DNA of 36,084 nt from assembly GCA_005879535.1 (NCBI GenBank), contig VBKI01000075.1, positions 1 to 36,084 of the forward strand, written 5' to 3'. Position numbers and translations under genes: made by a program. Positions 21,242 to 35,821 of the stretch are shown here, piece by piece. Within the stretch, counting starts at the first letter, position 1, and each line of letters begins with the position of its first letter. Under the pieces are notes generated by a model. It was not told the DNA's origin, did no database searches, and saw only the letters and a list, made by a program, of their open reading frames with translations. This stretch comes from Deltaproteobacteria bacterium. GTDB lineage: Bacteria > Myxococcota > Myxococcia > Myxococcales > 40CM-4-68-19.

Positions 21242-22654
21242 ATGGCGACCCCCGCGCACCACGAACTGCTCGGAGCGGACGAGCACGATGTCCCGCTGCG
21301 GTCGCTGGCGACGCCCGCCCGGCCTCCTCCTCCACCCCCTGCGCCCAGCAGCCCGGGGCTGCGGCCGGTGCGCCCGTCCCGCGCTTCCTCGCGTCGGCTC
21401 GGCCTGTTCTTCAAGGTGTTTTTCGGCGACATGAGCATCTGGGCGGTGCTCTCCGGCGTGCTCACCTACGAGGTGATTCGGCAGGGTCTCCATCCGCAGC
21501 ACGCCATCGCCGGCGCCACCGCAGGCCTCATCGTCGCCATCGCCGTCTCGGTCGGCCTCAAGCAGATCGCCAACCGCATCGTGCGCCTGAACCGCAGCGC
21601 CCTCGAGATCAGCCGCGGAGATCTCTCCAAGGCGTTGCCCAGCGAGAAGCCCTCGTTCCTCGGCGTGGACGAGGTGGACGAGCTGACGGTCGCGATCTCG
21701 CACATGCAGGAGAACCTGCGCGACCTGGTCCGGCACATCCAGAACACCAGCCGCGCCGTGGCCGACTCGGCGGACGAGATGCAGGTCTCCACCGGCAACG
21801 TGACCGCCTCCGCCGAAGAGATCAAGGAGTCGATGGACCGCATCGCCAAGGGTGCGGAGGAACAGCTGCGACTGGTGGAGCGGGCCAGCGGCTTGATCAA
21901 CGGAATCGCCACCTCCATCAAGTCCAGCGCGAATACCGCTCAGGCGGCGGCCGAAGTGGCCACGGCGACTTCCACGGCGGCGCAGGCCGGCGGAGCGGCC
22001 GCCCAGCTCGCCGCGGAGAAGATCAAGAAGGTCTTTGCCGAGATCGAGGCCGCGTCGGAGACCGTCTTCGCCTTCGGCGAGAAGACGCAGGAGATCAGCA
22101 AGATCGTCGTCGCCATCACCGGCGTGGCGCAGCAGACCAACCTCCTCGCCCTCAATGCAGCCATCGAGGCAGCCCGCGCCGGCGAATACGGCCGCGGCTT
22201 TGCCGTCGTGGCCGACGAGGTCCGGAAGCTGGCGGAGTCCGCCGGGCGATCCGCCGAGCAGATCAGCCGGCTCGCCCAGGAGATCAGCCAGCGCAGCCAG
22301 CACGCCGTCGCCGCGATGAAGGAAGGCATCGACGAGCTGGGACAAGGCCGCGAGGACCTCGCGCAGATCATCCTCTCCCTCGACGAGATCGTCCACGCCA
22401 CGCAGGAAGGGACCGAGCGCGTCACCGCCATCTCCCAGGCCGCCAAGGAACAGCTGGCGGGCTCCGAGGAGATGGTGAAGGCCATCCGCGAGATCCGCGA
22501 AGTGGCTTCCTCCAACGCCAAGAGCACGGAGGAGGTGTCGCGCGCCATCCGCGAGCAGGCGGTGGTGACCGCCTCCATCGCCTCCGCCTCGCAGGAGCTG
22601 ACCAACCTTTCCGTCGAGCTGCAGAGCGTCGTCTCGCGGTTCAGGCTGGAGTGA
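21242..22654 (+). CDS. Methyl-accepting chemotaxis protein with minimal sensor region
   Basis: A 470-residue chemoreceptor. A Pro-rich cytoplasmic N terminus (about 22-50) precedes two membrane segments (about 62-78 and 88-107) separated by only about ten residues, so there is no periplasmic ligand domain. A HAMP-like segment (about 108-165) follows, with GDLSKALP and [14 protein letters not shown]. The long signalling coiled coil contains the conserved hairpin tip [20 protein letters not shown], followed by [13 protein letters not shown], which contacts CheA and CheW. No C-terminal CheR-docking pentapeptide is visible. It heads an operon with cheW, cheY, cheA and a CheC-like gene. Lack of a sensor domain suggests that it senses membrane state or an intracellular partner, or is a relay; that is inference. 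It is divergent from hrcA. Confidence 0.93.
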
Positions 22655-22658
22655 ACCG

Positions 22659-23078
22659 ATGCCGCGCGCCGTCATCTGCCTGCATGGAGGCAACCGATAC
22701 GCGCTCCCGCTCTCCGCGGTGCGGCGCGTGACGGAGATGACGTTCGTCTCCCGCGTTCCTCGCGCGCCCCCGGCGCTCCTCGGGGTGATGAGCCAGCAGG
22801 GACGCGTGGCTGCCCTGATCGATCTCGGCCCGCTCGTCGGTTTGCGCGCGCGCCCGGCGCGCCCCGAGGGCAAGGTGGTGATGCTGCAGCGGGCGAGAGG
22901 CGACGTCGGTCTCTACGTGTCGGAAGTGGCCGGGATCGACGAGATCCCCGCCGAAGCACGCGAGCTGAAGGAGCCGGCGGGGGCGGCGCTCGCGCAGGTG
23001 GATTCCGCCGACGGTCCCGTGAAGCTGATCGATCCCGAGCAGCTGCAGCGGGCCATCGACAACCTGGTGGAGGCGTAA
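22659..23078 (+). CDS. cheW: CheW-domain adaptor protein
   Basis: A 139-residue single CheW domain linking the receptor to CheA. The pattern is typical: AVICLHGGNRYALPLSAVRRVTE is broken into strand, turn and strand (4-26), then VPRAPPALLGVMSQQGRVAALIDL (33-56) and GLYVSEVAGIDEIP (83-97). Length matches the family minimum. It starts four bases after the MCP stop and is followed after two bases by cheY, so the genes are certainly in one transcript. The match is to a divergent CheW, and the usual G-x-x-N-x-R-G motif is relaxed to LLGVMSQQGR. Confidence 0.85.
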   Translation: MPRAVICLHGGNRYALPLSAVRRVTEMTFVSRVPRAPPALLGVMSQQGRVAALIDLGPLVGLRARPARPEGKVVMLQRARGDVGLYVSEVAGIDEIPAEARELKEPAGAALAQVDSADGPVKLIDPEQLQRAIDNLVEA

Positions 23079-23080
23079 CG

Positions 23081-23449
23081 ATGCCCCAGAGGCGAGTGCT
23101 GATCGTCGACGACGCGCTGTTCATGCGCAATACGCTGCGCGACATCTTCGCCGGCGCCGGCTTTGCCGTCGCGGGTGAGGCGGACGACGGCGTCCAGGCC
23201 GTCAACCTCTTCCGCGACCTGAAGCCCGACCTCGTCACCATGGACATCGTGATGCCCTACAAGTCGGGCATCGACGCGACGCGCGAGATCGTCCAGCTCG
23301 ATCCCAACGCGGTGGTGATCATGTGCTCCGCGCTCGGACAGGAGTCGCTGGTCATGGAGGCCATCGAGGCCGGGGCGACGGACTTCATCGTCAAGCCGTT
23401 CCGGGGGGAGGACGTGCTGGCGGTCGTGAAGAAGGTGCTCGGCGAGTAG
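23081..23449 (+). CDS. cheY: CheY-like single-domain response regulator
   Basis: A 122-residue receiver domain without an output domain. The acidic pocket is D10-D11, the phosphorylation site is D55 (LVTMDIVMP), the switch residue is S83 (MCSALGQ) and the conserved lysine is K105 in KPF. The sequence around MDIVMPYKSGIDA is close to true chemotaxis CheY. Phosphoryl transfer is expected from CheA, encoded immediately downstream, and removal by the CheC-like phosphatase at the end of the operon. Output partner (a flagellar switch or another motility or transcription target) is not in the window. Confidence 0.93.
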   Translation: MPQRRVLIVDDALFMRNTLRDIFAGAGFAVAGEADDGVQAVNLFRDLKPDLVTMDIVMPYKSGIDATREIVQLDPNAVVIMCSALGQESLVMEAIEAGATDFIVKPFRGEDVLAVVKKVLGE

Positions 23450-23457
23450 GTCCCCTC

Positions 23458-25461
23458 ATGGCGGAGACCCCCCACAAGTACCTGCACGCTTTCATCGCGG
23501 AAGCGACCGAGCAACTCGAGCAGCTCGCTTCCGAGCTGGTGCGCATCGAGCAGGAGTCGCCGGGCGGAGCGCTCTGGGATTCCATCTTCCGGCGCGTGCA
23601 TTCGGTGAAAGGGAGCGCCGCAACCATCGGCCTCTCCGCCATCGTCGACATCGCGCACGCGGCGGAGACGCTGATCGGCAAGCTCAAGGCGCGCAACGCG
23701 AAACCGGAGCGCAGCCACGTCGATCTGCTGCTCCAGGCGACCGACGGCCTCGTCCAGGAGGTGCAGCACGCGTCGGGAACGGCGCAAGGCCCGCGCGAGG
23801 GCGAGAAGGCGCCCGCCGCGATCGCCGCAAGGCTCTCGGCGGCGTCGGCCGCGCTGCCCGATGCGTTTCCCCTCGCGGCGGTGCCGAAGGTGGCGAAGAA
23901 GGTGGTCGCCGATCCTTCGCTCCCCAGGCTGGACGTCGCGTTCGCGCTGTCCAAGGCGTGCCAGGCGCCGGGCGCGCGAAGCCTGATCGTGCAGCGGAAG
24001 CTGAAAGCGCTGGGGGTGCTCCTGGAGATGGACCCGCAGCCGACGGCGCTGATGCAGAAAAAGGGCGGCGTGCGGGTCACCGCGCTGCTCGCCACGGCGC
24101 GTCCGGTCGAGCAGGTCCGCGCGGCTTTCGACGGGATTCCGGAAGTGGAAGACGTCGAGGTGCGCCTCGCGCCAGCGCCGACGGCCAGCGGACCCCAGCC
24201 CGTGGAGCCGCAGCCGGGCGGCGCGGTGCGAATGGTCACGGATGCGCCGATGCCCGACGACGGGAGGACGGACGCGACGGTCCGCGTCCGTGCCCAGGCG
24301 CTCGATCAGCTTCTCGACCAGGCGGCGGAGGTGCTGCACGGCATCGCCAGACTCCGCGAAGCCGCCCGGAAGCTGCCCGAGAACGCTTCCGGACAGTTCG
24401 AGGCCGAGATCGATCGGCTGCGCCGGAACGCCCGCGACCTGCATGGCCGCGTGATGAACGCACGCCTGACCCCGTTCTCCTCCCTCACGGAGCGTCTTCC
24501 ACGTGCCGTTCGCGATCTGGCGCACCGGTTGGGCAAGGAAGTGGAGCTCGAAGTGCAGGGCGGGGAGGTCGAGCTCGATCGCACCGTGATCGAGGCGCTG
24601 GCGGACCCGCTCACGCACCTCGTCCGCAACGCCGTCGATCACGGTCTGGAGACCAGCGCCCAGCGCATCTCGATGGGGAAGTCGCTGCGCGGCCTGCTGG
24701 TGCTGTGCGCGCGCCGCGAGCGCGACAAGGTCCTGGTGGAGGTCAGCGACGACGGCGCGGGCTTCGACGCGGAGCGGCTACGCCAGCGCGCCATCGACAT
24801 GGGAACGCTCTCGCCGGACAAGGTGGGCGAGATCACCGAGCAGCAGAGTTACGAGCTGGCATTCTTGCCCGGCCTCTCGACGCGCGAGGAAGCAACGGAT
24901 CTCTCCGGCCGGGGTGTGGGCCTCGACGCCGTGAAGGCCGCGGTGGAAGGCCTGGGCGGCAAGATCGGGCTGCGCTCGGCGCCGGGAAAGGGCTCGCGGT
25001 TCACCCTCGAGCTCCCCCTCAGCGTCTCCATGGCGAATCTTCTTCTCGTGCAGGTGGGAGGCGAGCTGTACGGGTTGCCGATGAGCCGCGTCGTTGCCAC
25101 CACCGAGTACGATCTCTCCGCGCGCGGAGGAGAGGGGTTCGAGGCGAGGTCGCTGGCGGTGATGGGACAGCTCGTGCGTGCGTACTCGCTGGCGAAACTT
25201 TTCGGGCTACCGTCGCTCGCGCCTCCCGGGCCCCGGCCGTTCGCGGTGCTGGAAGTCGACGGCATCACCTTCGCGCTCTCGGTCGACCGGCTGGTCGGCC
25301 AGGAAGAAGCGGTGCTGAAGCCGCTCTTTGCGCCGATCGATCGGATCAAGGGGCTCGCCGGAACCACCGTCCTCGGAAACGGCCGGCCGCTGCTGGTGCT
25401 CGATCCCCGCGGGCTGCACGAGCTGGCGGAAGCTTCCCAGCGGATGCGGGGGGCGGCCTGA
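23458..25461 (+). CDS. cheA: Chemotaxis histidine kinase CheA
   Basis: A 667-residue class II sensor kinase. P1/Hpt (about 1-115) carries the phosphorylated H48 in RRVHSVKGSAATIG. A ferredoxin-like region at about 155-243 probably is the CheY-binding P2. The dimerisation helices P3 begin near 280. The ATPase domain has the N box HLVRNAVDHGLE, G1 VSDDGAGFD and G2 GRGVGLDAVKAAVEGLGG. A C-terminal CheW-like P5 domain (about 525-660) couples to CheW and receptor. I chose the ATG at 23458; the frame is open further upstream only as a shadow of cheY. Its stop shares one base with the start of the next gene (TGATG). All catalytic elements are intact. Confidence 0.95.
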   Translation: MAETPHKYLHAFIAEATEQLEQLASELVRIEQESPGGALWDSIFRRVHSVKGSAATIGLSAIVDIAHAAETLIGKLKARNAKPERSHVDLLLQATDGLVQEVQHASGTAQGPREGEKAPAAIAARLSAASAALPDAFPLAAVPKVAKKVVADPSLPRLDVAFALSKACQAPGARSLIVQRKLKALGVLLEMDPQPTALMQKKGGVRVTALLATARPVEQVRAAFDGIPEVEDVEVRLAPAPTASGPQPVEPQPGGAVRMVTDAPMPDDGRTDATVRVRAQALDQLLDQAAEVLHGIARLREAARKLPENASGQFEAEIDRLRRNARDLHGRVMNARLTPFSSLTERLPRAVRDLAHRLGKEVELEVQGGEVELDRTVIEALADPLTHLVRNAVDHGLETSAQRISMGKSLRGLLVLCARRERDKVLVEVSDDGAGFDAERLRQRAIDMGTLSPDKVGEITEQQSYELAFLPGLSTREEATDLSGRGVGLDAVKAAVEGLGGKIGLRSAPGKGSRFTLELPLSVSMANLLLVQVGGELYGLPMSRVVATTEYDLSARGGEGFEARSLAVMGQLVRAYSLAKLFGLPSLAPPGPRPFAVLEVDGITFALSVDRLVGQEEAVLKPLFAPIDRIKGLAGTTVLGNGRPLLVLDPRGLHELAEASQRMRGAA

Positions 25462-26072
25462 TGCAGCAGCGCAAGCCCGTCACTCCGCTGGAGCTCACGC
25501 CGCAGCAGATCGAGGCGCTGCGGCAGCTCGCCCAGTTCGGCTCCGCGGATGCCGCGCGATCGCTCGGGCGACTGCTGGGGACGTTCGTGGAGGCGGTGCA
25601 GCCCCGCGCCCAGGTGGCGCCGAAGGGGGCGGTGCAGCGGGTGCTGCAGCCCGACGGCGCGGCCTTCTCGGTCCACTTCGAGGTCGACGGCGGCGCTCGC
25701 CTGCGCTGGATGATGCACGTGACGGAGGAGGGAGCGACGTTGATGGGCGGGCTGCTCCTGGGCGCTCCCGGAGGCGCCCTGCAGCAGCCCACGCTGTACA
25801 CAAGCGCGCTGGCGGAGATGTCGAACATCGTGGTGTCGAGCTACGTGGGAGGCGTCGCGGCGGCGGTCGGGCTCACCCTGGTTCCGTCCATCCCTCACGT
25901 CGGCGGGGGCACGCTCGCCGAGACCATGGAGGCGGCGTTCGGGGATCTCGACTCCTCGCTGCTACTGGTGACCGATCTTCGTCTTCCGGGCGTCCGGTAC
26001 GCCGGCCGCATCGTCGCCGCTCCTGTCGACGAATCGCTCTCGCGCCTGCTCTCGATGCTCGGCGTCGTGTGA
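25461..26072 (+). CDS. cheC: CheC-like CheY-P phosphatase
   Basis: A 203-residue member of the CheC/CheX/FliY phosphatase family, expected to dephosphorylate CheY. The second half holds the full active-site pattern D/S-x3-E-x2-N-x22-P: S-ALA-E-MS-N near 115-122, then Pro 23 residues later. The first half keeps the fold signature TPQQIEALRQLAQFGSADAA, but the active-site residues corresponding to E and N are Gln (Q and Q), so this site looks inactive. The ATG overlaps the cheA stop by one base. No cheD, which often partners with CheC, is present in the window. Naming it cheC instead of cheX rests on length and on the two-halves layout. Confidence 0.82.
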   Translation: MQQRKPVTPLELTPQQIEALRQLAQFGSADAARSLGRLLGTFVEAVQPRAQVAPKGAVQRVLQPDGAAFSVHFEVDGGARLRWMMHVTEEGATLMGGLLLGAPGGALQQPTLYTSALAEMSNIVVSSYVGGVAAAVGLTLVPSIPHVGGGTLAETMEAAFGDLDSSLLLVTDLRLPGVRYAGRIVAAPVDESLSRLLSMLGVV

Positions 26073-26085
26073 TAGATCGCCCGCG

Positions 26086-26889
26086 ATGGACGCGCGGGCG
26101 CTGCGTGACTTTCTCGAGCGGGTCAAATCGGGCGAGCTGGCGGTAGAGGACGCCGCTCGCCTCCTGACGGAGCTTCCCGTCCAGCAGATCTCCGACTTCG
26201 CGCAGCTCGACGGCGAGCGCGCGCTCCGCATGGGCGTGCCGGAGGTGATCTTCGGCGAGCGGAAGCGGCCCGAGCAGATCGGCGCGCTCGTCGAGCGGCT
26301 GGTCACGCTCGGCCAGGCCGTTCTGGTCACGCGCATGGCGCCGGAGGCCGAGGCGGCGGCGCTCGCGGCTGCTCCCCGGGGCCGCTACGACCCGGTCTCG
26401 CGCACGTTCACGGCCCCTCCGGCCGCCGGGATTCCGCCGCGGGAAGGTCTGGTCGCCGTGGTCTGCGCCGGCACCACCGACATCCCGGTGGCGGAAGAGG
26501 CATGCGCGACCGCCCACGTCGTCGGAGCGCAGGTCGAGCGCGTCTATGACGTCGGCATCTCCGGCCTGCACCGCCTGCTGCGGCGGGCGCCGGCGCTGCG
26601 CGAGGCCGATGCGCTCGTCGTCTGCGCCGGGATGGAAGGCGCGCTGCCGTCGGTCGTCGGGGGGCTGGTAGCGCGTCCCGTGATCGCCGTCCCGACCAGC
26701 GTCGGCTATGGCGCCTCCCTGGGTGGAATCGCGGCTCTCCTGGCGATGCTGAACTCCTGCGCCGCAAACGTCACGGTGGTGAACATCGACAATGGCTTCG
26801 GCGCCGGCTTCGTGGCCGCGCTGATCGCGCGCCAGTCGCACGCCGTGCGGGACGCCAGAGACCGCCGGCAGGAGGCGCGGCCGCGATGA
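26086..26889 (+). CDS. larB: Nickel-pincer cofactor biosynthesis protein LarB
   Basis: A 267-residue protein related to AIR carboxylase (PurE). LarB carboxylates the pyridinium ring of nicotinic acid adenine dinucleotide and hydrolyses the phosphoanhydride, the first step of the nickel-pincer nucleotide cofactor of lactate racemase-type enzymes. An N-terminal region (about 1-110) contains VIFGERKRPEQI, and the PurE-like core (about 115-265) contains CAGTTDIPVAEEA, VYDVGISGLHRLL, CAGMEGALPSVVGGL, and PTSVGYGASLGGIAALL, all family signatures. It lies 13 bases after the CheC-like gene and overlaps larC by ATGA, so the two are coupled. There is no larA or larE in the window, which would complete the pathway. 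Confidence 0.93.
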   Translation: MDARALRDFLERVKSGELAVEDAARLLTELPVQQISDFAQLDGERALRMGVPEVIFGERKRPEQIGALVERLVTLGQAVLVTRMAPEAEAAALAAAPRGRYDPVSRTFTAPPAAGIPPREGLVAVVCAGTTDIPVAEEACATAHVVGAQVERVYDVGISGLHRLLRRAPALREADALVVCAGMEGALPSVVGGLVARPVIAVPTSVGYGASLGGIAALLAMLNSCAANVTVVNIDNGFGAGFVAALIARQSHAVRDARDRRQEARPR

Positions 26890-28049
26890 GCACCCTCGTC
26901 CTCGAGCCTGTCGGCGGGATCGCCGGCGACATGATGATCGGCGCCCTGCTGCACCTCGGCGCGCCTCGGGCGGCGCTCGACGACGGTCTGCGGCGTCTCG
27001 CTCTTCCCGGCGTCTCCGTCGATGCGCGCGAAGTGGAGATCGCCGGAATCCGCGCGCTCCACGTCGACGTCCGCGCACCACGCGATCGGCACACCCACCG
27101 CCCGTGGCGGGAGATCCGCGATCTCCTCTCCCGCGCGCACCTTCCCTCCCGGGCCGCCGGCATGGCGCAGGCCGCCTTCGAGGTGCTCGTCAAGGCGGAA
27201 GCGCGCATCCACGGGATCGCGCCCGAGGAGGTCGAGTTCCACGAGGTCGGCGCCGTCGACTCGATCGTCGACGTGGTCGGCAGCGCGGCGCTGATCGAGG
27301 CGCTCGCGCCGCGGCGGATTCTCGCCCTGCCTCCGCCTTCCGGCGGCGGAACGATCCCTGCCGCTCATGGCGTCATTCCCGTTCCCTCGCCCGCCACGCT
27401 CGAGGTCCTGCGCGGACGGACGGTGCGTCCCAGCGGCCCGGGTGAGCGGACCACGCCCACCGGTGCGGCGCTGCTCGCCGCCTGGAGCGAGGAGTCGCTC
27501 GCGATCCCGGAGCTGACCATCGACCATATCGGGTATGGCGCCGGCACCAGGAGGTGGGAAGACGCCCCGAACCTGTTGCGCGCGCTCCTCGGGCGGTCCA
27601 CGGTCCCCTCGGATGCGGTGTGGGTGCTGGAAGCGAACCTCGACGACCTTTCGCCGCAGCTGCTGGCGGCGGCCCTCGATTCCATCCTTGCCGCCGGCGC
27701 ACTCGACGCCTGGATTGCCCCTGTGACGATGAAGAAGGGGCGGCCGGGACACCTTTTCGGCGCGATCTGCGACGACACACGCCGGAGCGCCGTCGAAACC
27801 GAGATGTTCAGGCAGACCAGCACCCTCGGGGTTCGGGCGACGCGCGTCGAGCGCCGCGTGCTCGACCGGGAGCTCATCGAGGTCGAGACCGCGTACGGAA
27901 AAGTGCGCGTCAAGGTAGGACGGCTCGGGGGAACGATCGCCAACGTGGCACCGGAGTTCGAGGACTGCAGGCAGGCAGCCGAGCGCTTGGGCGTCGCGGT
28001 GAAGGAGGTGATGGCGGCGGCTCTCTCGGCATTTCGTGGAGCACGCTGA
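26886..28049 (+). CDS. larC: Nickel insertion protein LarC
   Basis: A 387-residue enzyme that inserts nickel into the pincer cofactor precursor in a CTP-dependent reaction. It has the family opening LEPVGGIAGDMMIGALLHLG, an HRPWREIRDLL segment with a His-rich DRHTHR, EFHEVGAVDSIVDVVG, GTIPAAHGVIPVPSPAT, RTTPTGAALL, and the C-terminal half EANLDDLSPQLLAAAL plus VTMKKGRPGH. In Lactobacillus the two halves are joined by ribosomal frameshifting; here the gene is a single continuous frame. The start overlaps the larB stop by four bases. Expression together with larB is clear, while the enzyme that uses the cofactor is not encoded nearby. Confidence 0.93.
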   Translation: MSTLVLEPVGGIAGDMMIGALLHLGAPRAALDDGLRRLALPGVSVDAREVEIAGIRALHVDVRAPRDRHTHRPWREIRDLLSRAHLPSRAAGMAQAAFEVLVKAEARIHGIAPEEVEFHEVGAVDSIVDVVGSAALIEALAPRRILALPPPSGGGTIPAAHGVIPVPSPATLEVLRGRTVRPSGPGERTTPTGAALLAAWSEESLAIPELTIDHIGYGAGTRRWEDAPNLLRALLGRSTVPSDAVWVLEANLDDLSPQLLAAALDSILAAGALDAWIAPVTMKKGRPGHLFGAICDDTRRSAVETEMFRQTSTLGVRATRVERRVLDRELIEVETAYGKVRVKVGRLGGTIANVAPEFEDCRQAAERLGVAVKEVMAAALSAFRGAR

Positions 28050-28091: not shown

Positions 28092-29474
28092 TTGCCGGAG
28101 CATCGCAGATTCCGCATTGCATTGATCGGTCCCGCGGCCCAGGCGCTTGCAGCGCAGATGGTTGCGGCCGGATTCGACCTGGCCGACGGTGGCGCGGCGG
28201 TCGTCGACGTCGAAGGCGCGCAGGAAGCGATCGCCGACGTTCGCCACCGCTACGCTCCAGTCGTGGGGGTCCTGAGCGGTGACGCTCCGCTTTCCGCGGG
28301 GGCGAGCGCACTCGACGCGCTGGTGCGGCTTCCCTACGGCGCGACGGATCTTCCGCCGCTCCTGCGGACGCTGATCCGTGCCGCGGACGATCGCGGCGAG
28401 CTGTCGCAACTGCGCCGGTACGAGGATTTCTTCAGCCACATCAACGACGGCATGGCGGTGCTCGATGAGCAGGGCCGCGTCCTGACGGTCAATCCGGCAG
28501 GCTGCTCGATCCTCGGCCTCCATGGCGAGGAGGCCCGTGGGTTGCCCCTGCCCGAGTTGGTGGCGAAGGAGAGCGCGATGGAAGCGACCCTGCTCTGGCG
28601 GGAGCTGGCTGGCGGCGGCCGCGTGCTCTCCGCCGACCTGCGCGTGCAGACCAGGGACGGGCGCCCCCTGACGTTGTCGGTATCCGCCGGGCCCCTGCGG
28701 TCGCAGAATGGCCACGCCATCCTCACCTTCCGCGACGTCTCCGAGCGCCGCGAGCTGGAGAGCGAGCTGCGCCAGACCAAGGAGTTTCTCGAGCGGCTCA
28801 TTCACGCCACCTCCGATGGCATCGTCGCCGCCGACCTGCAGGGAACGCTCCTCCTGTTCAACAAGGGCGCGGAGCGGATGACGGGCTTCCCCGCCGGGGC
28901 GCTGGTGGGGAAGTCGAACATCCGCGAGCTCTATCCGCCGGGGTTGGCGGAAGAGATGATGCGCCGGCTTCGGGAGGCGCGGGCGGCAGGCGAGGAGTTC
29001 GGTCGCGTGCGCTGCGAGATCGTCGCCCGCAGCGGCGAAGTGATCCCCGTCGACTTGTCCGCAGCCATCGTCACCGAGGACGGCCGCGATACCGCCACCG
29101 TCGGCGTGTTCCGCGATCTGAGAGAGGAGCTGCGGCGCGAGTCGGAGCTGCGCAAGACGCGCGAGCGGCTGGAGGAGGCCGAAAAGGCGGCGGTCGTTTC
29201 AGAGCTCGCCGGCGCCGCTGCGCACGAGCTCAACCAGCCGCTCACGAGCGTCCTCGGATTTTCCGAGCTGCTGTTCCGGCGCACGCGCGAGCACGAAAAA
29301 GGCCGGGAAGAGCTGGCTGCCATCCTCCGCGAAGCGGAGCGGATGGCGCAGATCGTGAAAAAGATCGGCAGGATTACGCGGTACGAAACCACCGCCTACG
29401 TGGGAAAGACGCGGATCGTCGATCTCGATCGGGCGTCGAATCCGCCAGCGGTCGTCATCCGCGACAAGCCGTAG
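28092..29474 (+). CDS. PAS-PAS-HisKA signalling protein lacking an ATPase domain
   Basis: A 460-residue soluble protein, starting at TTG. The first 100 residues look like a worn receiver fold (RIALIG, then VVDVEG, without a clear phosphorylation site). Two PAS domains follow (about 112-230 and 240-355), with DGMAVLDEQGRVLTVNPAG and DGIVAADLQGTLLLFNKGAERMTG split across strands, and each ends in a conserved FRD-type motif. A coiled coil leads to a HisKA dimerisation domain with H378 in AHELNQPL. The protein stops about 80 residues after that His with YETTAYVGKTRIVDLDRAS. No HATPase_c domain is present or hidden in other frames downstream. It may be phosphorylated by a partner kinase, or act without phosphate. 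The ending resembles a family I recall from myxobacteria. Confidence 0.85.
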   Translation: MPEHRRFRIALIGPAAQALAAQMVAAGFDLADGGAAVVDVEGAQEAIADVRHRYAPVVGVLSGDAPLSAGASALDALVRLPYGATDLPPLLRTLIRAADDRGELSQLRRYEDFFSHINDGMAVLDEQGRVLTVNPAGCSILGLHGEEARGLPLPELVAKESAMEATLLWRELAGGGRVLSADLRVQTRDGRPLTLSVSAGPLRSQNGHAILTFRDVSERRELESELRQTKEFLERLIHATSDGIVAADLQGTLLLFNKGAERMTGFPAGALVGKSNIRELYPPGLAEEMMRRLREARAAGEEFGRVRCEIVARSGEVIPVDLSAAIVTEDGRDTATVGVFRDLREELRRESELRKTRERLEEAEKAAVVSELAGAAAHELNQPLTSVLGFSELLFRRTREHEKGREELAAILREAERMAQIVKKIGRITRYETTAYVGKTRIVDLDRASNPPAVVIRDKP

Positions 29475-29486
29475 GTGCGTCGTCGC

Positions 29487-31250
29487 TCATCGCGGCACTG
29501 CAAGGAGTGCATAGCCGCCGACGCTCGGCAGGATGGTCGAGACCGAGAAGCCCGAGGGGTTGAGCGTGATCCTCTCGCCGTCCCGGCCGCCGCTGCGCTC
29601 CGGCGCGAACCAATAGCCCGAGCGGCCGCCGCCGGCCGCTTGCCCGGCGATGCTCACCTGCACGCCCTGCGCGGGGACGAAGGCGGCATCCTGAAGATCG
29701 AGGTTGACGAAGTGCACGTCCAGCTTCCGCTCCGGATCGAGATACGCGCGCGAGAAGAGCCTGCCGCGGCCGCTGATGGTGACCTGCGGGCGGGCGCGGG
29801 TCGACAGCTCCCGCAACGCGCGGGTCAGCGCTGCGTCCTGGGCGCCCTCGTCGAGCGCGAACACGCGTCCTTCGCCGACGCGCTCGAGGCCTGACTTCAC
29901 TTCGGGGAAGAGCGGGTCGCCGGTGCGGCCTTCCTCGTCGATCGGCGTGCACTTGCCGACCATCAATAGATCCCCGCCTGCTTCGACGTATCGGCGCGCT
30001 GCCACTGCGTCCGACGCGGGCAGCGCGGTCGCGCCAGCCAGCACCAGAAGCCGCGCGCGGATGCCGCCCGAAAGATCGAGTCGGACGACGGGCTGGAGCT
30101 GCGCCCGCGCCAGCGCGGCGACGGCGGCTGCCGCCGCGCGCTCATGTCCGCCGTCCGCCCAATGGTCGCAGCGCGGCGAGAGCAGCACCTCGACGTCGAG
30201 GAGCGCGACGCTCGGGCGGTAGCGCTCGCGGACCAGGCCGAGAAACTGCCGATGCGCCGCGAGAGCCTCCCGCGCCTGCGGCGGCGCGTCGTCGCCGAGC
30301 AACAGATCGGCGTCGCACGCCGTCGCCAGCCCGGCAAAGAGCTGCACTTGCGCCGCGCTGGCCCCCGCAGGAAGAACGGCGACGGCCGGCCTCAGCCCGA
30401 GAGCGGCCCGCGCCGCAAGCAGCGGAAGCAACGCGGCGAACGGGTCGAGCGAGGGGAGGTCGAAGACGAGCCCGTCCAGGTGGCGGCAGAGCTCGAGCGC
30501 GAGCGGAGACAGCGTTCCCGCCCGCCCGAGGACCGCCACCTCCACGCTGCGCTGGCGGCGCGCTTCGTCGCGGGCGCGAAGAATGGACCTCTTGGCCGCC
30601 TCGACCGACTCGAGAAGACGCAGCGCCTGCTTCTGGCGCGCGAACGGGCGCTCGCGCCGCGGCAGCGTGGAGGAGCGCATTTCCTCGAGCGCGTCGAAGG
30701 GCTCGAGGTGATCGCCGTAGGCCTCGCGCAGGTACTCGACGAGCGCGAGCTCGCAGCTGCGGCAGTAGCCGGCGCCCTCAGGCCCGAGGCGGTACCAGCG
30801 ATCGAGGCCTTCGAGAAGGACCGCTTCTCCCGCGAGCGCGGCGCGCGCCGCGAGTGCGCCCGCGGCGTCGCGTCCTTCGAGAGAAGAGGCACAGCGGACC
30901 GCTGCCGGCGCGCCGTCGAGCGCCCGACACCGGTCGGTTTCGCCCGTGGGCACGCCGACGTCGGCGCCGATCACCCAGGGGACCTGGCGAGTCTGCGGAG
31001 CGGGAGCCTCCGTCCCGGCCTCCAGCGCGGGGACCGGCGCCGCAGCGGGCAGCGCGCCCTTTTCCGGAACTCCCGGCGCTCCCGGCTCGACCGGCGGCGG
31101 GAGCGGGACGCCCGCCGGGGGCGTGACCTGCGCGGCAACCCGGATGGGAACGAGAATCGCTTCGCTTCCCGCCGCTTTCGCCTCCCCGCCCTGTTCAAGT
31201 CCGGACAGCGCGACGTGCCGCGTTCTCGGGAAGGTGACCTCGCGCGCCAT
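29487..31250 (-). CDS. Large protein of unknown function with traces of a GH42-like fold
   Basis: A 587-residue protein with no confident match. After a short N-terminal strand region comes a Pro/Ala-rich low-complexity stretch (about 38-80). A globular part follows with a YCRSCELALVEYLREAYG motif, which is like the Cys pair and helix before the active region of GH42-like beta-galactosidase families. A later alpha/beta region with LLVLAGATALPASDA and RRYVEAGGDLLMVG resembles their amidotransferase-like trimerisation domain. Canonical GH42 catalytic Glu motifs are not apparent. The end (VSTILPSVGGYALLAVPR) is a beta-rich finish. I used ATG 31250; a hydrophobic stretch upstream (LLLLPGAAAAATAEAG) could be a signal peptide if a GTG further out is used. 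The gene is convergent with the PAS/HisKA gene and divergent from exbB. Confidence 0.7.
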   Translation of the reverse strand: MAREVTFPRTRHVALSGLEQGGEAKAAGSEAILVPIRVAAQVTPPAGVPLPPPVEPGAPGVPEKGALPAAAPVPALEAGTEAPAPQTRQVPWVIGADVGVPTGETDRCRALDGAPAAVRCASSLEGRDAAGALAARAALAGEAVLLEGLDRWYRLGPEGAGYCRSCELALVEYLREAYGDHLEPFDALEEMRSSTLPRRERPFARQKQALRLLESVEAAKRSILRARDEARRQRSVEVAVLGRAGTLSPLALELCRHLDGLVFDLPSLDPFAALLPLLAARAALGLRPAVAVLPAGASAAQVQLFAGLATACDADLLLGDDAPPQAREALAAHRQFLGLVRERYRPSVALLDVEVLLSPRCDHWADGGHERAAAAAVAALARAQLQPVVRLDLSGGIRARLLVLAGATALPASDAVAARRYVEAGGDLLMVGKCTPIDEEGRTGDPLFPEVKSGLERVGEGRVFALDEGAQDAALTRALRELSTRARPQVTISGRGRLFSRAYLDPERKLDVHFVNLDLQDAAFVPAQGVQVSIAGQAAGGGRSGYWFAPERSGGRDGERITLNPSGFSVSTILPSVGGYALLAVPR

Positions 31251-31464
31251 CGGAGTGCGGAACCTAGCACGGCGCAATGGCCCGGTCCCTGCTTCCGCGG
31301 TGGCGGCGGCAGCGGCGCCGGGAAGCAGCAGCAAGCGCCCGATTGCCGATTCGGTGAGCGGCACCCAGATTGCTGAACGGGCCAGTGGCCCGGTTCGAGG
31401 GAGGCGGGGGGGCCCCGCGGTCCCGGCCGGTTTTGAACTCTTTTCCTGCAGAGGACGGAAACGA
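31251..31464. promoter_or_regulatory. Divergent intergenic region before the ExbB/ExbD genes
   Basis: This 214-base gap separates the unknown protein gene (leftward) from exbB (rightward) and must hold both promoters, but no good -35/-10 pair is visible on either strand. It contains a hairpin CGGGCC-AGT-GGCCCG at 31378-31392, flanked by GAA and TTC. A GAGGA ribosome binding sequence lies in front of the exbB ATG. Confidence 0.4.
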
Positions 31465-32136
31465 ATGAGCCCGATTTTCGAGACGGTCGCGCAGCACTGG
31501 AAGGGCGGCGGCTTCGGCATGTACCCGATCGCGATCTGCCTCGTCTTCGCGGTCGCGGTGATCATCGACCGCATCCAGGTTCTCTTCTTCTCCGCCAGCG
31601 TCGACAAGGACCAGTTCTTGCGCGGCCTGAAGACGCACATCTTCAACGGCGACCTGGACAAGGCGATCAGCTACACGGCCGGCCAGAAGACGACGCCCCT
31701 GACCAACATCGTCAAGGCGGGACTCATCAACGTCCCCAAGGGAGAGGACGAGGTGCAGGCCGCGATGGACGAGGCTTCGCTGCGGGAGATGCCCCGCATC
31801 GAGAAGCGCACCGGCTATCTGGCGATGATCGGCAACGTCGCCACCCTGGTCGGCTTGCTCGGCACCATCATCGGCCTGATCCAGTGCTTCGCCGGCGTCG
31901 CCGGTGTGGACGCCAGCGAGAAGGCCCGCGTCCTCTCCGACGGCATCGCGGAGGCGATGAACTGCACGGCGTTCGGCCTCATCGTCGCCATCCCCTCGCT
32001 GGTGGCGTTCTCGCTGCTGCAGGGGCGGACCCAGCACATGATCGACGACATCAACGAGACGTCGGTCGGCGTGCTGAACCTGATCGTGGCCAACAAGGAC
32101 AAGATGCGGATCCCCGCCAACCTGCCCCAGCAGTAA
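31465..32136 (+). CDS. exbB: MotA/TolQ/ExbB-family proton channel protein
   Basis: A 223-residue inner-membrane protein of the proton-conducting motor family. Three membrane segments are visible: about 18-40 (MYPIAICLVFAVAVIIDRI), 116-140 (LAMIGNVATLVGLLGTIIG) and 160-185 (AFGLIVAIPSLVAFSLLQ), with a large cytoplasmic part between the first two. The family signature GLLGTIIGLIQCF and the following GIAEAMNCTAFGLIVAIPS are intact. The ATG at 31465 has GAGGA upstream; the open frame before it is a shadow of the divergent gene. Two ExbD proteins follow in the same operon. This one-ExbB/two-ExbD layout matches TonB-like energisers and also the AglR-AglQ-AglS gliding motor of Myxococcus; the sequence cannot separate these. 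Confidence 0.9.
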   Translation: MSPIFETVAQHWKGGGFGMYPIAICLVFAVAVIIDRIQVLFFSASVDKDQFLRGLKTHIFNGDLDKAISYTAGQKTTPLTNIVKAGLINVPKGEDEVQAAMDEASLREMPRIEKRTGYLAMIGNVATLVGLLGTIIGLIQCFAGVAGVDASEKARVLSDGIAEAMNCTAFGLIVAIPSLVAFSLLQGRTQHMIDDINETSVGVLNLIVANKDKMRIPANLPQQ

Positions 32137-32160: not shown

Positions 32161-32625
32161 ATGGCTGGCGCGGCTCCGCAGGAACATACCGGGAAAGGCG
32201 GAAAGAAGGCGCTGGACGCCGAGCTGAACCTCGTGCCGTTCATCGACCTGCTCTCCTGCTGCATCAGCTTCCTCCTGATCACCGCGGTGTGGACACAGAT
32301 CGCGGGCCTCCAGGTGGCGAGCAGCGGCGGTCCGCCGGATCCACAGGCGAAGCAGGAGAGCACCATCGACGTGCGGCTGCTCCTGAACGACAAGGGCTAC
32401 CAGCTCATCATGGCCGGAGCGATTCTCGACATTCCCAAGCAGAACGGGGTCTTCGATCGCAAGACGCTCGCCGAGAAGCTGAAGACGCTGAAGTCGAGCC
32501 TGCCAGACCAAAGCGCCATCACCGTGCAGCCCGAGGATTCGGTCGCGTACGCCGACCTGGTCGAGACCGTGGACACCGCGATGGGCGAACAGCTGCGCAA
32601 CGTGACCGTTGCGCCGGCGAACTAG
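32161..32625 (+). CDS. exbD: ExbD/TolR-family protein, first copy
   Basis: A 154-residue biopolymer transport protein with a short cytoplasmic N terminus, one membrane segment (about 24-44) and a periplasmic domain. D29, in NLVPFIDLLSC at the start of the segment, is the proton-binding aspartate that makes ExbD/TolR/MotB work with the ExbB channel. Periplasmic residues (about 60-150) carry an alpha/beta domain with IDVRLLLNDKGYQL and AITVQPEDSVAYADLVETVD. It lies 24 bases after exbB, preceded by GAGGAGAG. It is probably one of a pair with the next gene. Confidence 0.9.
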   Translation: MAGAAPQEHTGKGGKKALDAELNLVPFIDLLSCCISFLLITAVWTQIAGLQVASSGGPPDPQAKQESTIDVRLLLNDKGYQLIMAGAILDIPKQNGVFDRKTLAEKLKTLKSSLPDQSAITVQPEDSVAYADLVETVDTAMGEQLRNVTVAPAN

Positions 32626-32634
32626 GGGGGCGCA

Positions 32635-33207
32635 ATGGCCATCGTCACGCCGGGGAAGCGGCCCTGCGATCGGATCGCCCAGAGCAAGGTCCTGGAAAAG
32701 AAGTTCAACCGCGGCAAGCGCGGCGTCTACGCCGGTCTCACGCTGACCTCGCTGGTGGACGTGATGACCATCATCGTCATCTTCCTCCTGATGAACTTCA
32801 GTGCGAACGGCGAAGTGCTCTACATGAGCAAGGACATCAAACTGCCCGACGCGTACCACGGCTCCCAGCTCGACCGCGCGCCGGTCATCTCCGTCTCCCC
32901 CGAAGCGGTCACGTTCGACGGCAGGATGCTGCTCAACACCGCGGACCTGGCGAAGGGTGACGCGGTCAACGTGCCCGAGCTCGAGGACGCGCTGCGCGAC
33001 GAGAAGCGCCGCTACGAGACCGTCCACCAGAACGACCCGGATCATCCCTTCCGGGGGCTGATCAATGTCCAGGCGGACAAGCAGATCCCGTTCAAGGTGA
33101 TCAAGCGGGTGATGTTCGCGTGCAACCAGAGCGGGTTCGGGAACATCAACTTCGCCGCGCTCTCGCGCGAAGCGGGTCCGGCCAAGACGGTCACGGCCAG
33201 CAGGTAG
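32635..33207 (+). CDS. exbD: ExbD/TolR-family protein, second copy
   Basis: A 190-residue protein of the same family, with a longer basic N terminus (about 1-34) before the membrane segment (about 35-56). The channel aspartate is D42 in LTSLVDVMTIIVIFLLMNF. The periplasmic domain (about 60-190) contains VISVSPEAVTFDGRMLL and a QADKQIPFKVIKRVMFACNQSG segment close to the ExbD/TolR consensus, with GFGNINFAAL at the end. It starts nine bases after the first copy behind a G-rich ribosome binding site. The two copies differ in length and sequence, so they probably form a heteromeric stalk, as AglQ/AglS are thought to. That comparison is inference. Confidence 0.9.
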   Translation: MAIVTPGKRPCDRIAQSKVLEKKFNRGKRGVYAGLTLTSLVDVMTIIVIFLLMNFSANGEVLYMSKDIKLPDAYHGSQLDRAPVISVSPEAVTFDGRMLLNTADLAKGDAVNVPELEDALRDEKRRYETVHQNDPDHPFRGLINVQADKQIPFKVIKRVMFACNQSGFGNINFAALSREAGPAKTVTASR

Positions 33208-33294: not shown

Positions 33295-33327
33295 CAAGGT
33301 TTTTGGCCTTGGCATGCGCCGTTGGGC

Positions 33328-33356
33328 TTTACAGGCGCGGCGGATCACTCTATTTT
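33328..33356 (+). promoter_or_regulatory. Candidate sigma-70 promoter for the membrane pyrophosphatase
   Basis: TTTACA (33328-33333, five of six to the -35) and TATTTT (33351-33356, four of six to the -10) are 17 bases apart, the optimal spacing. The predicted start is near 33363, leaving a leader of about 30 bases to the ATG at 33392. This A/T-rich patch stands out in very GC-rich surroundings. Confidence 0.5.
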
Positions 33357-33391
33357 TCGCCGCCCCGAAAAACCGGGAGTCCCGCGCCCCC

Positions 33392-35821
33392 ATGCAGAAT
33401 ATCGTCCGCCGTTTTGCCCTGCCCGTCCTGGCCGTCCTCGCGCTTCCGTTCGCTGCCCGCGCCGACGAGGCGAAGCTGATCCTTCCCGATCTGGGGAGCG
33501 TCGGCTTTCTCGGGATGTCGGGACGCAGCCTGCTGGAGATCGGACTCGTGATCTGCGCGCTCGGCCTGATCTTCGGCATCGTCATCTTTGCCCAGCTCAA
33601 GCGATTGCCGGTCCACCGGGCGATGCTCGAGGTCTCCGAGCTGATCTACGAGACCTGCAAGACGTACCTCGTCACCCAGGGCAAGTTCATCCTCATCCTG
33701 GAGACCTTCATCGGCGTGATCATGGTGATCTATTTCGGCTGGCTCCGGCATTTCGAGGCGGCCAAGGTGATCACCATCATCATCTTCAGCCTGCTCGGAA
33801 TCGGCGGCAGCTACGGAGTTGCCTGGTTCGGCATCCGCGTCAACACCTTCGCCAACTCGCGCACCGCCTTCGCCGCCCTGCGCGGAAAGCCATTCCCGAC
33901 GTACGTCATTCCGCTGAAGGCGGGCATGTCCATCGGCACGATGCTGATCAGCATCGAGCTCCTGATGATGCTCTGCATCCTCCTCTTCGTGCCGGTGGAC
34001 TACGCGGGGCCCTGCTTCATCGGATTCGCCATCGGCGAATCGCTTGGCGCCTCCGCGCTGCGCATCGCCGGCGGGATCTTCACCAAGATCGCCGACATCG
34101 GCAGCGATCTGATGAAGATCGTCTTCAACATCAAGGAGGACGACGCGCGCAACCCTGGCGTGATCGCCGACTGCACCGGGGACAACGCCGGCGACTCGGT
34201 GGGTCCCTCGGCCGACGGATTCGAGACCTACGGCGTCACCGGAGTAGCGCTGATCAGCTTCATCCTGCTCGCGGTGCCCGAGCCGCGGGTGCAGGTGCAG
34301 CTCCTGGTCTGGATCTTCGCGATGCGGATCATGATGATCGTCGCTTCCGTCGGATCGTACCTGATCAACGAGACGATCCAGCGCGGCCGGTACGCCCACG
34401 CCGACCGGATGAACTTCGAGGCGCCCCTCACCTTCCTGGTCTGGCTCACCTCGCTGGTCTCCGTCGCGCTGACCTTCGTCGTCAGCTGGCTCCTGATCCC
34501 GAATCTCGGCGGTGACACCACCATGTGGTGGAAGCTTTCGCTCATCATCACGGCGGGAACGCTCGCCGGCGCGATCATCCCCGAGGTCGTGAAGGCATTC
34601 ACCTCGACCGAGTCCAGCCACGTCCGCGAGGTGGTGACCGCCTCGCGCGAGGGAGGAGCCTCGCTCAACGTCCTCTCCGGGCTGACCGCCGGCAACTTCA
34701 GCGCTTACTGGATGGGGATCGTCATCGTCTCCCTGATGGGCATCGGCTTCTTCGTTTCCGCCCAGGGCCTCGGCCAGATGATGCTCGCGCCCGCCGTGTT
34801 CGCCTTCGGCCTGGTCGCCTTCGGCTTCCTGGGGATGGGCCCGGTGACCATCGCAGTCGACAGCTATGGACCAGTGACGGACAACGCGCAGTCCGTCTAC
34901 GAGCTCTCACTGATCGAGCAGATCCCCGGCCTCGAGGCCGAGGTGAAGCGGGACTTCGGGTTCGATCTCTCCTTCGACAAGGCCAAGCACTTCCTGGAGG
35001 AGAACGACGGCGCCGGGAACACCTTCAAGGCCACCGCGAAGCCGGTGCTGATCGGGACCGCGGTGGTAGGCGCGACGACGATGATCTTCTCGATCATCAT
35101 GGTCCTCACCGACGGGTTGCGGACGAACATGCAGTACCTGACCATGTTGCACGCACCCTTTCTCCTCGGCCTGGTCACCGGCGGCGCCGTCATCTACTGG
35201 TTCACCGGCGCGTCCATCCAGGCCGTCTCCACCGGCGCCTACCGCGCGGTGGAGTTCATCAAGGCGAACATCAAGCTCGAAGGAGCCACCAAGGCCTCGA
35301 TCTCCGACTCCAAGAAAGTGGTCGAGATCTGCACCCAGTACGCGCAGCGCGGCATGTGGAACATCTTCCTGGTCGTCTTCTTCTCCACCCTCGCCTTCGC
35401 CTGCCTCGAGAGCTACTTCTTCATCGGTTACCTGATCTCCATTGCCCTGTTCGGCCTCTACCAGGCCATCTTCATGGCGAACGCCGGCGGCGCCTGGGAC
35501 AACGCGAAGAAGGTGGTGGAGGTAGAGCTGAAGGCGAAGGGGACGCCGCTGCATGCCGCATCGGTGGTGGGCGATACGGTGGGCGACCCGTTCAAGGATA
35601 CCTCCAGCGTGGCGATGAACCCGATCATCAAGTTCACCACCTTGTTCGGGTTGCTCGCCGTCGAGCTCGCGACCGAAATGCAGACGGGTACGCGCCTGGT
35701 GCTGGCAGCGATCTTCTTCGCGCTCTCGGTGGTGTTCGTCTGGCGCAGCTTCTACGGCATGCGCATCCAGAGCGCGGTCCGCGCCACCCAGACGACGCGA
35801 GCGGCCGCCCGCGCCGCCTGA
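33392..35821 (+). CDS. hppA: Membrane-bound proton-translocating pyrophosphatase
   Basis: An 809-residue integral membrane pump with about 16 hydrophobic segments that uses pyrophosphate hydrolysis to export H+ (or Na+). Catalytic loops are DDARNPGVIADCTGDNAGDS at 250-269 and ADGFETYG following, GPVTDNAQ at 493-500, GGAWDNAKK and GDTVGDPFKDTSSVAMNP. K546 in GNTFKA occupies the position where Lys marks K+-independent enzymes. Hallmark Asp residues are kept, but several neutral positions differ from canonical H+-PPases (ADCTGDNAGDSVG against ADNVGDNVGD). An N-terminal segment with a clear signal peptide and A-R-A cleavage site (about 1-24) is unusual but known in some members. The ATG is used; the upstream frame is non-coding. 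It follows the ExbB/ExbD operon with its own candidate promoter. Confidence 0.93.
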   Translation: MQNIVRRFALPVLAVLALPFAARADEAKLILPDLGSVGFLGMSGRSLLEIGLVICALGLIFGIVIFAQLKRLPVHRAMLEVSELIYETCKTYLVTQGKFILILETFIGVIMVIYFGWLRHFEAAKVITIIIFSLLGIGGSYGVAWFGIRVNTFANSRTAFAALRGKPFPTYVIPLKAGMSIGTMLISIELLMMLCILLFVPVDYAGPCFIGFAIGESLGASALRIAGGIFTKIADIGSDLMKIVFNIKEDDARNPGVIADCTGDNAGDSVGPSADGFETYGVTGVALISFILLAVPEPRVQVQLLVWIFAMRIMMIVASVGSYLINETIQRGRYAHADRMNFEAPLTFLVWLTSLVSVALTFVVSWLLIPNLGGDTTMWWKLSLIITAGTLAGAIIPEVVKAFTSTESSHVREVVTASREGGASLNVLSGLTAGNFSAYWMGIVIVSLMGIGFFVSAQGLGQMMLAPAVFAFGLVAFGFLGMGPVTIAVDSYGPVTDNAQSVYELSLIEQIPGLEAEVKRDFGFDLSFDKAKHFLEENDGAGNTFKATAKPVLIGTAVVGATTMIFSIIMVLTDGLRTNMQYLTMLHAPFLLGLVTGGAVIYWFTGASIQAVSTGAYRAVEFIKANIKLEGATKASISDSKKVVEICTQYAQRGMWNIFLVVFFSTLAFACLESYFFIGYLISIALFGLYQAIFMANAGGAWDNAKKVVEVELKAKGTPLHAASVVGDTVGDPFKDTSSVAMNPIIKFTTLFGLLAVELATEMQTGTRLVLAAIFFALSVVFVWRSFYGMRIQSAVRATQTTRAAARAA

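Follow-up and report, generated by a model that had tools for sequence, protein, structure and literature searches.

A conserved family of HisKA proteins without an ATPase domain, and its neighbouring complete kinase, in Myxococcota

We identify c0, a HisKA protein from a myxococcal genome, as an intact representative of a family that is old and mostly present in single copy. The family combines receiver-like, GAF and PAS sensor parts with a HisKA hairpin and a fixed tail, and lacks an ATPase domain of its own. In much of the lineage, the c0 gene lies immediately upstream of the gene for a particular complete histidine kinase, c1. We propose that c0 acts as a non-catalytic sensor and phosphoacceptor subunit that pairs with c1 and is phosphorylated by it in trans, which we regard as the most likely reading, at a probability of roughly one half. 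HisKA proteins without an ATPase domain are usually dismissed as incomplete or misannotated kinases (PMC5847659, PMC3591291). Most of the phylum keeps c0 as one copy, and the family has an invariant tail residue, a coupled kinase, fusions and reciprocal partner loss. These features make it testable in cultured myxobacteria whether HisKA proteins without an ATPase domain are real signalling subunits.

Results

The window, by which we mean the whole stretch of 36,084 nucleotides analysed (contig VBKI01000075.1), encodes c0 as a 460-residue open reading frame at 28092-29474 on the forward strand, with a TTG start. Pfam recognizes PAS in two stretches (E 4.6e-32) and a HisKA domain at residues 370-428 (E 2e-12; 29199..29375), the latter also seen in the AlphaFold model as a hairpin of two helices, 344-397 and 402-429. 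PAS 1 spans residues 109-216 (28416..28739), and PAS 2, delimited by Pfam (PAS_3 at 256-339) together with the model, about residues 226-345 (28767..29126). In front of them, residues 8-97 (28113..28382, positions assigned by eye) are modelled as alternating strands and helices in a receiver-like fold; judged by eye, Asp39 and Ser62 are kept and the acid pair (Gly13-Pro14) and the lysine (Leu80) are missing. A GAF domain, present in most relatives, is absent from the window's copy. The putative phosphoacceptor is His378 (29223..29225), within AAAHELNQPLTS, and a conserved C-terminal tail lies at residues 429-449 (29376..29438), with the sequence RYETTAYVGKTRIVDLDRASNPPAVVIRDKP. The protein stops 31 residues past the second HisKA helix. 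The HATPase_c domain that follows HisKA in a canonical kinase is absent, and Pfam finds no HATPase anywhere in the open reading frame.

Model confidence is about 63-74 pLDDT over the HisKA hairpin of the monomer and falls below 50 from residue 431. A disordered tail would be expected if it folded only on a partner, low confidence being no proof of this. A Foldseek search with the model brought up mainly structures that contain PAS domains, FixL among them, and was silent on the tail. Among solved structures, the HisKA profile matched ordinary kinases, and the two alignments shown stop short of the tail.

These assignments agree with an earlier note on this DNA, made from its letters, which had described two PAS domains, a HisKA domain bearing His378 and, after a short tail, a stop codon. 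The same note held that an opposite-strand gene fills the next 1.7 kb and that no frameshifted ATPase domain lies there. Both claims stand: the GC content by codon position in the reverse-strand frame at 29487-31661 is that expected of a genuine gene, the frame has relatives elsewhere, and a six-frame search of the window with the HATPase profile at maximum sensitivity found CheA (23179-25458) as its sole real match, the other three matches listed having E>=1.8. A frameshifted or hidden ATPase domain downstream of c0 is ruled out by this search.

We surveyed the family with a profile of HisKA plus tail built from 18 rows, at a cut-off of E<=1e-18. Of the 195 genomes searched in the phylum, 147 have exactly one match, and these cover 69 of 90 genera. 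The examined loci yielded 78 distinct tail-bearing open reading frames, and 76 of these have no HATPase; 69 of the 76 end within 40 residues of the profile match and the remainder carry longer extensions. As a control, we considered 51 other HisKA frames that match the front of the profile only. HATPase is present in the same frame in 38, and the other 13 all reach the edge of the DNA examined, as judged by eye from their coordinates. His378, Gln382, Pro383, Leu384 and Tyr436 are invariant (78/78), and Glu379, next to the histidine, is found in 91%, a minority of members, one fusion among them, having Gln, Asn or Lys instead. Elsewhere in the tail, Ile442 (94%), Asp444 (95%) and Leu445 (92%) are nearly fixed. 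The constant core of the family is HisKA plus tail, mostly with PAS 2 in front; in one genome (G023) a receiver-like part stands where PAS 2 usually is. A search of the window genome with the 94-residue C-terminus for a second copy of the tail gave nine other matches, all weak (E 1.6e-7 or worse, in frames of 469-898 residues), and plasmids gave no copy of c0 at 1e-30. The earlier suggestion that this is a real family rather than a broken gene is borne out by this distribution and by the shared ending, and close homologues that run on into HATPase_c, which would have pointed to a truncation, were not found: the two frames that continue belong to distant relatives in which the module is joined to an entire second kinase. 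We conclude that the ending of c0 is not a chance truncation.

The kinase c1 is complete, with the order PAS-GAF-PAS-HisKA-HATPase, and its histidine and ATP-site residues are invariant in 13 of 13 aligned rows. It is matched in 123 of the 195 genomes at E<=1e-100, a cut-off at which divergent c1 genes may be missed. Both genes are held by 107 genomes, and in 106 of these c1 lies directly downstream of c0 on the same strand; in the exception (G147) the c0 match starts 217 bases from the end of the contig. The two matches overlap by 4 bp in 65 genomes, and ATGA-type overlaps were read in the nucleotides of two loci (L088 and L045). By the same cut-off, 40 of the 147 genomes with c0, the window's included, have no c1, and 16 have c1 without c0, namely 14 genomes of family f6 plus G030 and G101; in G101 the match to c1 starts at contig base 10, and c0 may be off the edge. 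Neither gene therefore strictly needs the other. We looked for a HATPase frame around c0 in the 40 genomes without c1 (loci L149-L178, the window, L084-L087, L101, L091, L094 and L095, with L084 and L087 being draft contigs). None has such a frame directly downstream on the same strand; the HATPase frames found nearby are either upstream of c0, in several genomes as CheA, or encoded on the opposite strand. A c1 gene elsewhere in the window genome is ruled out, there being no match at E<=1e-110.

Two genomes outside the phylum (G233 and G378) carry the c0 module, its tail and a complete kinase in a single open reading frame, of 1653 and 1651 residues, the two being 38% identical over 1624 columns. 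The order, from Pfam run on the first, is the c0 module with its tail, then PAS/GAF parts, PAS, HisKA and HATPase. Their N-terminal halves match c0 at 36% over 598 residues (L144) and 31% over 604, and their C-terminal halves match c1 at 42% over 431 and 33% over 461. When the C-terminal half from L144 was searched against six genomes, c1 was the best match in all five that hold it (260-309 bits, compared with 162-188 for the next kinase); in the sixth, the window genome, the best kinase reached only 148 bits. By these sequence comparisons, the kinase half of the fusions is orthologous to the separate gene c1. As with c0 elsewhere, larB and larC precede both fusions. A third genome outside the phylum (G343) has a c0 with a receiver that looks intact by eye, followed by a HATPase kinase. 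Separately, a 260-residue protein in G371, likewise outside the phylum (L147, 5743-6522, forward strand), consists of an intact-looking receiver, HisKA and the same tail, and nothing else, a composition that would suit a possible minimal His-Asp relay protein.

In the window, c0 follows a run of forward-strand chemosensory genes (21242..26072): mcp (21242-22654), cheW (22659-23078), a cheY-like receiver (23081-23449), cheA (23458-25461) and a gene that looks like CheC/CheX by eye and has no Pfam match (25461-26072). Next come larB (26086..26889) and larC (26886..28049), both on the forward strand and identified by NCBIfam, and the larC stop lies 42 bp before the c0 start. This che-lar-c0 order (21242-28049) recurs in distant genomes, two outside the phylum included, and there is no evident reason for the presence in it of larB-larC, which are nickel-cofactor genes. 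Beyond c0 lies c6 (29487..31661, reverse strand), a 724-residue frame for which Pfam gives nothing at E<=1; its relatives occupy six other loci, of which two belong to a single genome. It is conserved in the window's family, has a 31-36% relative in f6, and stands on the opposite strand to c0 or c1 where it follows them; in the window, no c1 lies between c0 and c6. In distant families, a gene of about 250-320 residues, LolA-like by eye, often stands directly after c0 (L149-L151, L153-L157, L165, L170-L172). We rejected these genes as kinase partners, which by eye they do not resemble.

Further downstream on the forward strand, Pfam identifies a TolQ/ExbB-type motor gene, c2 (31465..32136), and two ExbD-type genes, c3 (32161..32625) and c4 (32635..33207). 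A membrane pyrophosphatase (H_PPase, E 8.4e-180; 33314-35821) comes after them, and f6 has the same order. Relatives of c2 share one blast cluster with a gene of AglR length in locus L098, where the ExbB/ExbD/ExbD genes encode 245, 162 and 194 residues. M. xanthus AglR, AglQ and AglS have the same lengths (PMC3169522), and by gene order and matching length c0-c1 appear to adjoin the gliding-motor genes aglRQS in L098, which is a statement of proximity only. Proximity to ExbB/ExbD/ExbD genes is the one feature that would point to a gliding role for c0.

Gene order in related genomes reveals a reciprocal loss. One genome (G012, L088) has larB-larC-c0-c1. The window's family has larB-larC-c0 followed by c6 on the opposite strand, and the related family f6 has larB-larC-c1 followed by c6, with larC and c1 abutting in L104; at the same place, c0 survives in the first of these families and c1 in the second. 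What the earlier note could not show is that the partner kinase usual among relatives is missing here and that c0 is patchy within the window's family: 5 of its 12 genomes yielded no copy (two of these five are 97-98% complete), and two more copies are interrupted, one split over two frames in G002, of the window's genus, and one with an in-frame TGA in G010. Both are draft assemblies, and the interruptions may be errors. Over seven genomes of the family, dN/dS for HisKA plus tail lies at 0.046-0.374 in the 20 of 21 pairs for which it could be computed, and for PAS 2 it is 0.157-0.489 in 15 pairs with the frameshifted G002 left out. The HisKA and tail of this family are under purifying selection, which speaks for a function of c0 after the loss of c1. 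Sensor parts are less stable, with GAF lost from the window's copy and G007 and both GAF and PAS 1 lost from G005 and G006. L101, L042, L085 and the window thus document recurrent deletion of GAF or PAS 1 in a single family, in which PAS 2, HisKA and the tail are kept.

Discussion

We propose that c0 and c1 would work as one signalling unit. In this scheme, c0 would sense through its own PAS/GAF parts, and its HisKA helices would pair with a second HisKA, either its own or that of c1. His378 would be phosphorylated in trans by the ATPase domain of c1, and the phosphoryl group would then be handed to a receiver. The tail, standing where a kinase has its linker to the ATPase domain, may serve as a docking strand. 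In the window's lineage, which has lost c1, another kinase of the cell would presumably serve c0. The invariant His378, the glutamate that follows it in 91% of members, the adjoining c1 gene and the fusions all speak for phosphorylation in trans. Against it stand the genomes that have one gene and lack the other, the absent or interrupted copies in the window's family, the members in which Gln, Asn or Lys replaces the acid, and a tail to which the model gives no confident structure; c1 also has its own HisKA and so needs no outside acceptor. We hold a more far-reaching version as tentative and rather unlikely. It states that c0 and c1 are the two subunits of a dedicated kinase, with c0 as the conserved sensor and phosphoacceptor and its tail as a docking strand for another kinase's ATPase domain. 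It further states that, once the window's family had lost c1, the orphan c0 came to be served by some other kinase, possibly the upstream CheA, and that in several lineages c0 signals beside gliding-motor genes.

The best-surviving rival to phosphorylation in trans, possible though on balance unlikely, is that c0 heterodimerizes with c1 through its HisKA helices and tunes it while remaining unphosphorylated, as RetS does on GacS. The coupling and fusion of c0 to a complete kinase would fit such a role, and the replacement of the acid by Gln, Asn or Lys in some members that keep the rest of the H-box may weaken the phosphoacceptor reading. The adjacent kinase-like proteins FasB and FasC offer a precedent, since they heterodimerize by two-hybrid and the FasC ATPase domain is dispensable (PMC12675982). 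A purely structural role, however, would not need a histidine that is invariant in all 78 sequences, and c0 is present without c1 in 40 genomes.

We consider it improbable that c0 is a phosphatase that dephosphorylates a response regulator, an idea that Galperin et al. raise for comparable archaeal proteins (PMC5847659) and that the CheY-like receiver near c0 in the window would suit. According to work on CrdS of M. xanthus and three further kinases, the acidic residue following the histidine is required for the kinase reaction and dispensable for phosphatase activity, and E372Q abolishes the kinase activity of CrdS; in CrdS it is position +4, which HisKA phosphatases fill with Asn or Thr, that serves the phosphatase reaction (PMC3510030). 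The c0 family departs from this HE/DxxN/T motif, with Gln at +4 in 78 of 78. Retention of the acid in 91% of members together with an invariant Gln at +4 leans towards a phosphoacceptor over a phosphatase. FixL, which also has HELNQPL, is reported to dephosphorylate FixJ, and Gln at +4 is thus no proof against phosphatase activity. Weakest of all is the view that c0, with c1 gone, is a functionless relic on its way out of the window's lineage: absence from 5 of 12 family genomes, the frameshift in G002, the in-frame TGA in G010 and the repeated loss of GAF or PAS 1 would fit it, but HisKA plus tail is constrained in 20 of 21 pairs, the window's copy has its frame, His378 and tail intact, and the interrupted copies come from drafts.

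Comparison with known systems

Spo0B and ChpT use a DHp hairpin as a phosphotransfer subunit, with a degenerate ATPase-like domain and no sensor domains. The hairpin is common to these proteins and c0, whereas c0 carries sensor domains and ends soon after the hairpin, leaving no room for a degenerate ATPase-like domain. Split kinases such as R. sphaeroides CheA3/CheA4 place phosphoacceptor and ATPase on different proteins (PMC3591291). By contrast, c0 is of the HisKA rather than the CheA type, and its partner is no bare ATPase: c1 carries both a HisKA with an invariant histidine and a HATPase. Nor does c0 have the HE/DxxN/T signature of split bifunctional kinases (PMC3591291), its HELNQ carrying Gln at +4. 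FasB and FasC of group A Streptococcus are encoded by neighbouring genes and heterodimerize, the FasC ATPase domain being dispensable on overexpression, and GacS and RetS are mentioned alongside them as kinase-like proteins that form heterodimers (PMC12675982). A comparable adjacency holds for c0 and c1 in 106 of 107 genomes with both, though not in the window genome, and two natural fusions may hint, indirectly, at a physical heterodimer; FasC, however, retains an ATPase domain and c0 has none.

The absence of HATPase from HisKA proteins defines an already recognised class (PMC5847659, PMC3591291), to which one count assigns 1556 of 42417 HisKA proteins (PMC3591291). With the archaeal members, c0 shares N-terminal PAS/GAF sensors, a C-terminal HisKA with a conserved histidine and the absence of HATPase (PMC5847659). 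Within the literature covered on HATPase-less kinases, M. xanthus two-component proteins and LarB/LarC, with most subscription journals outside its scope, the c0 family is not described. Some archaea have several such genes per genome (PMC5847659), whereas c0 occurs once per genome and spans a bacterial phylum. New in the c0 family are its fixed tail, its phylum-wide single copy and its coupled or fused complete partner kinase.
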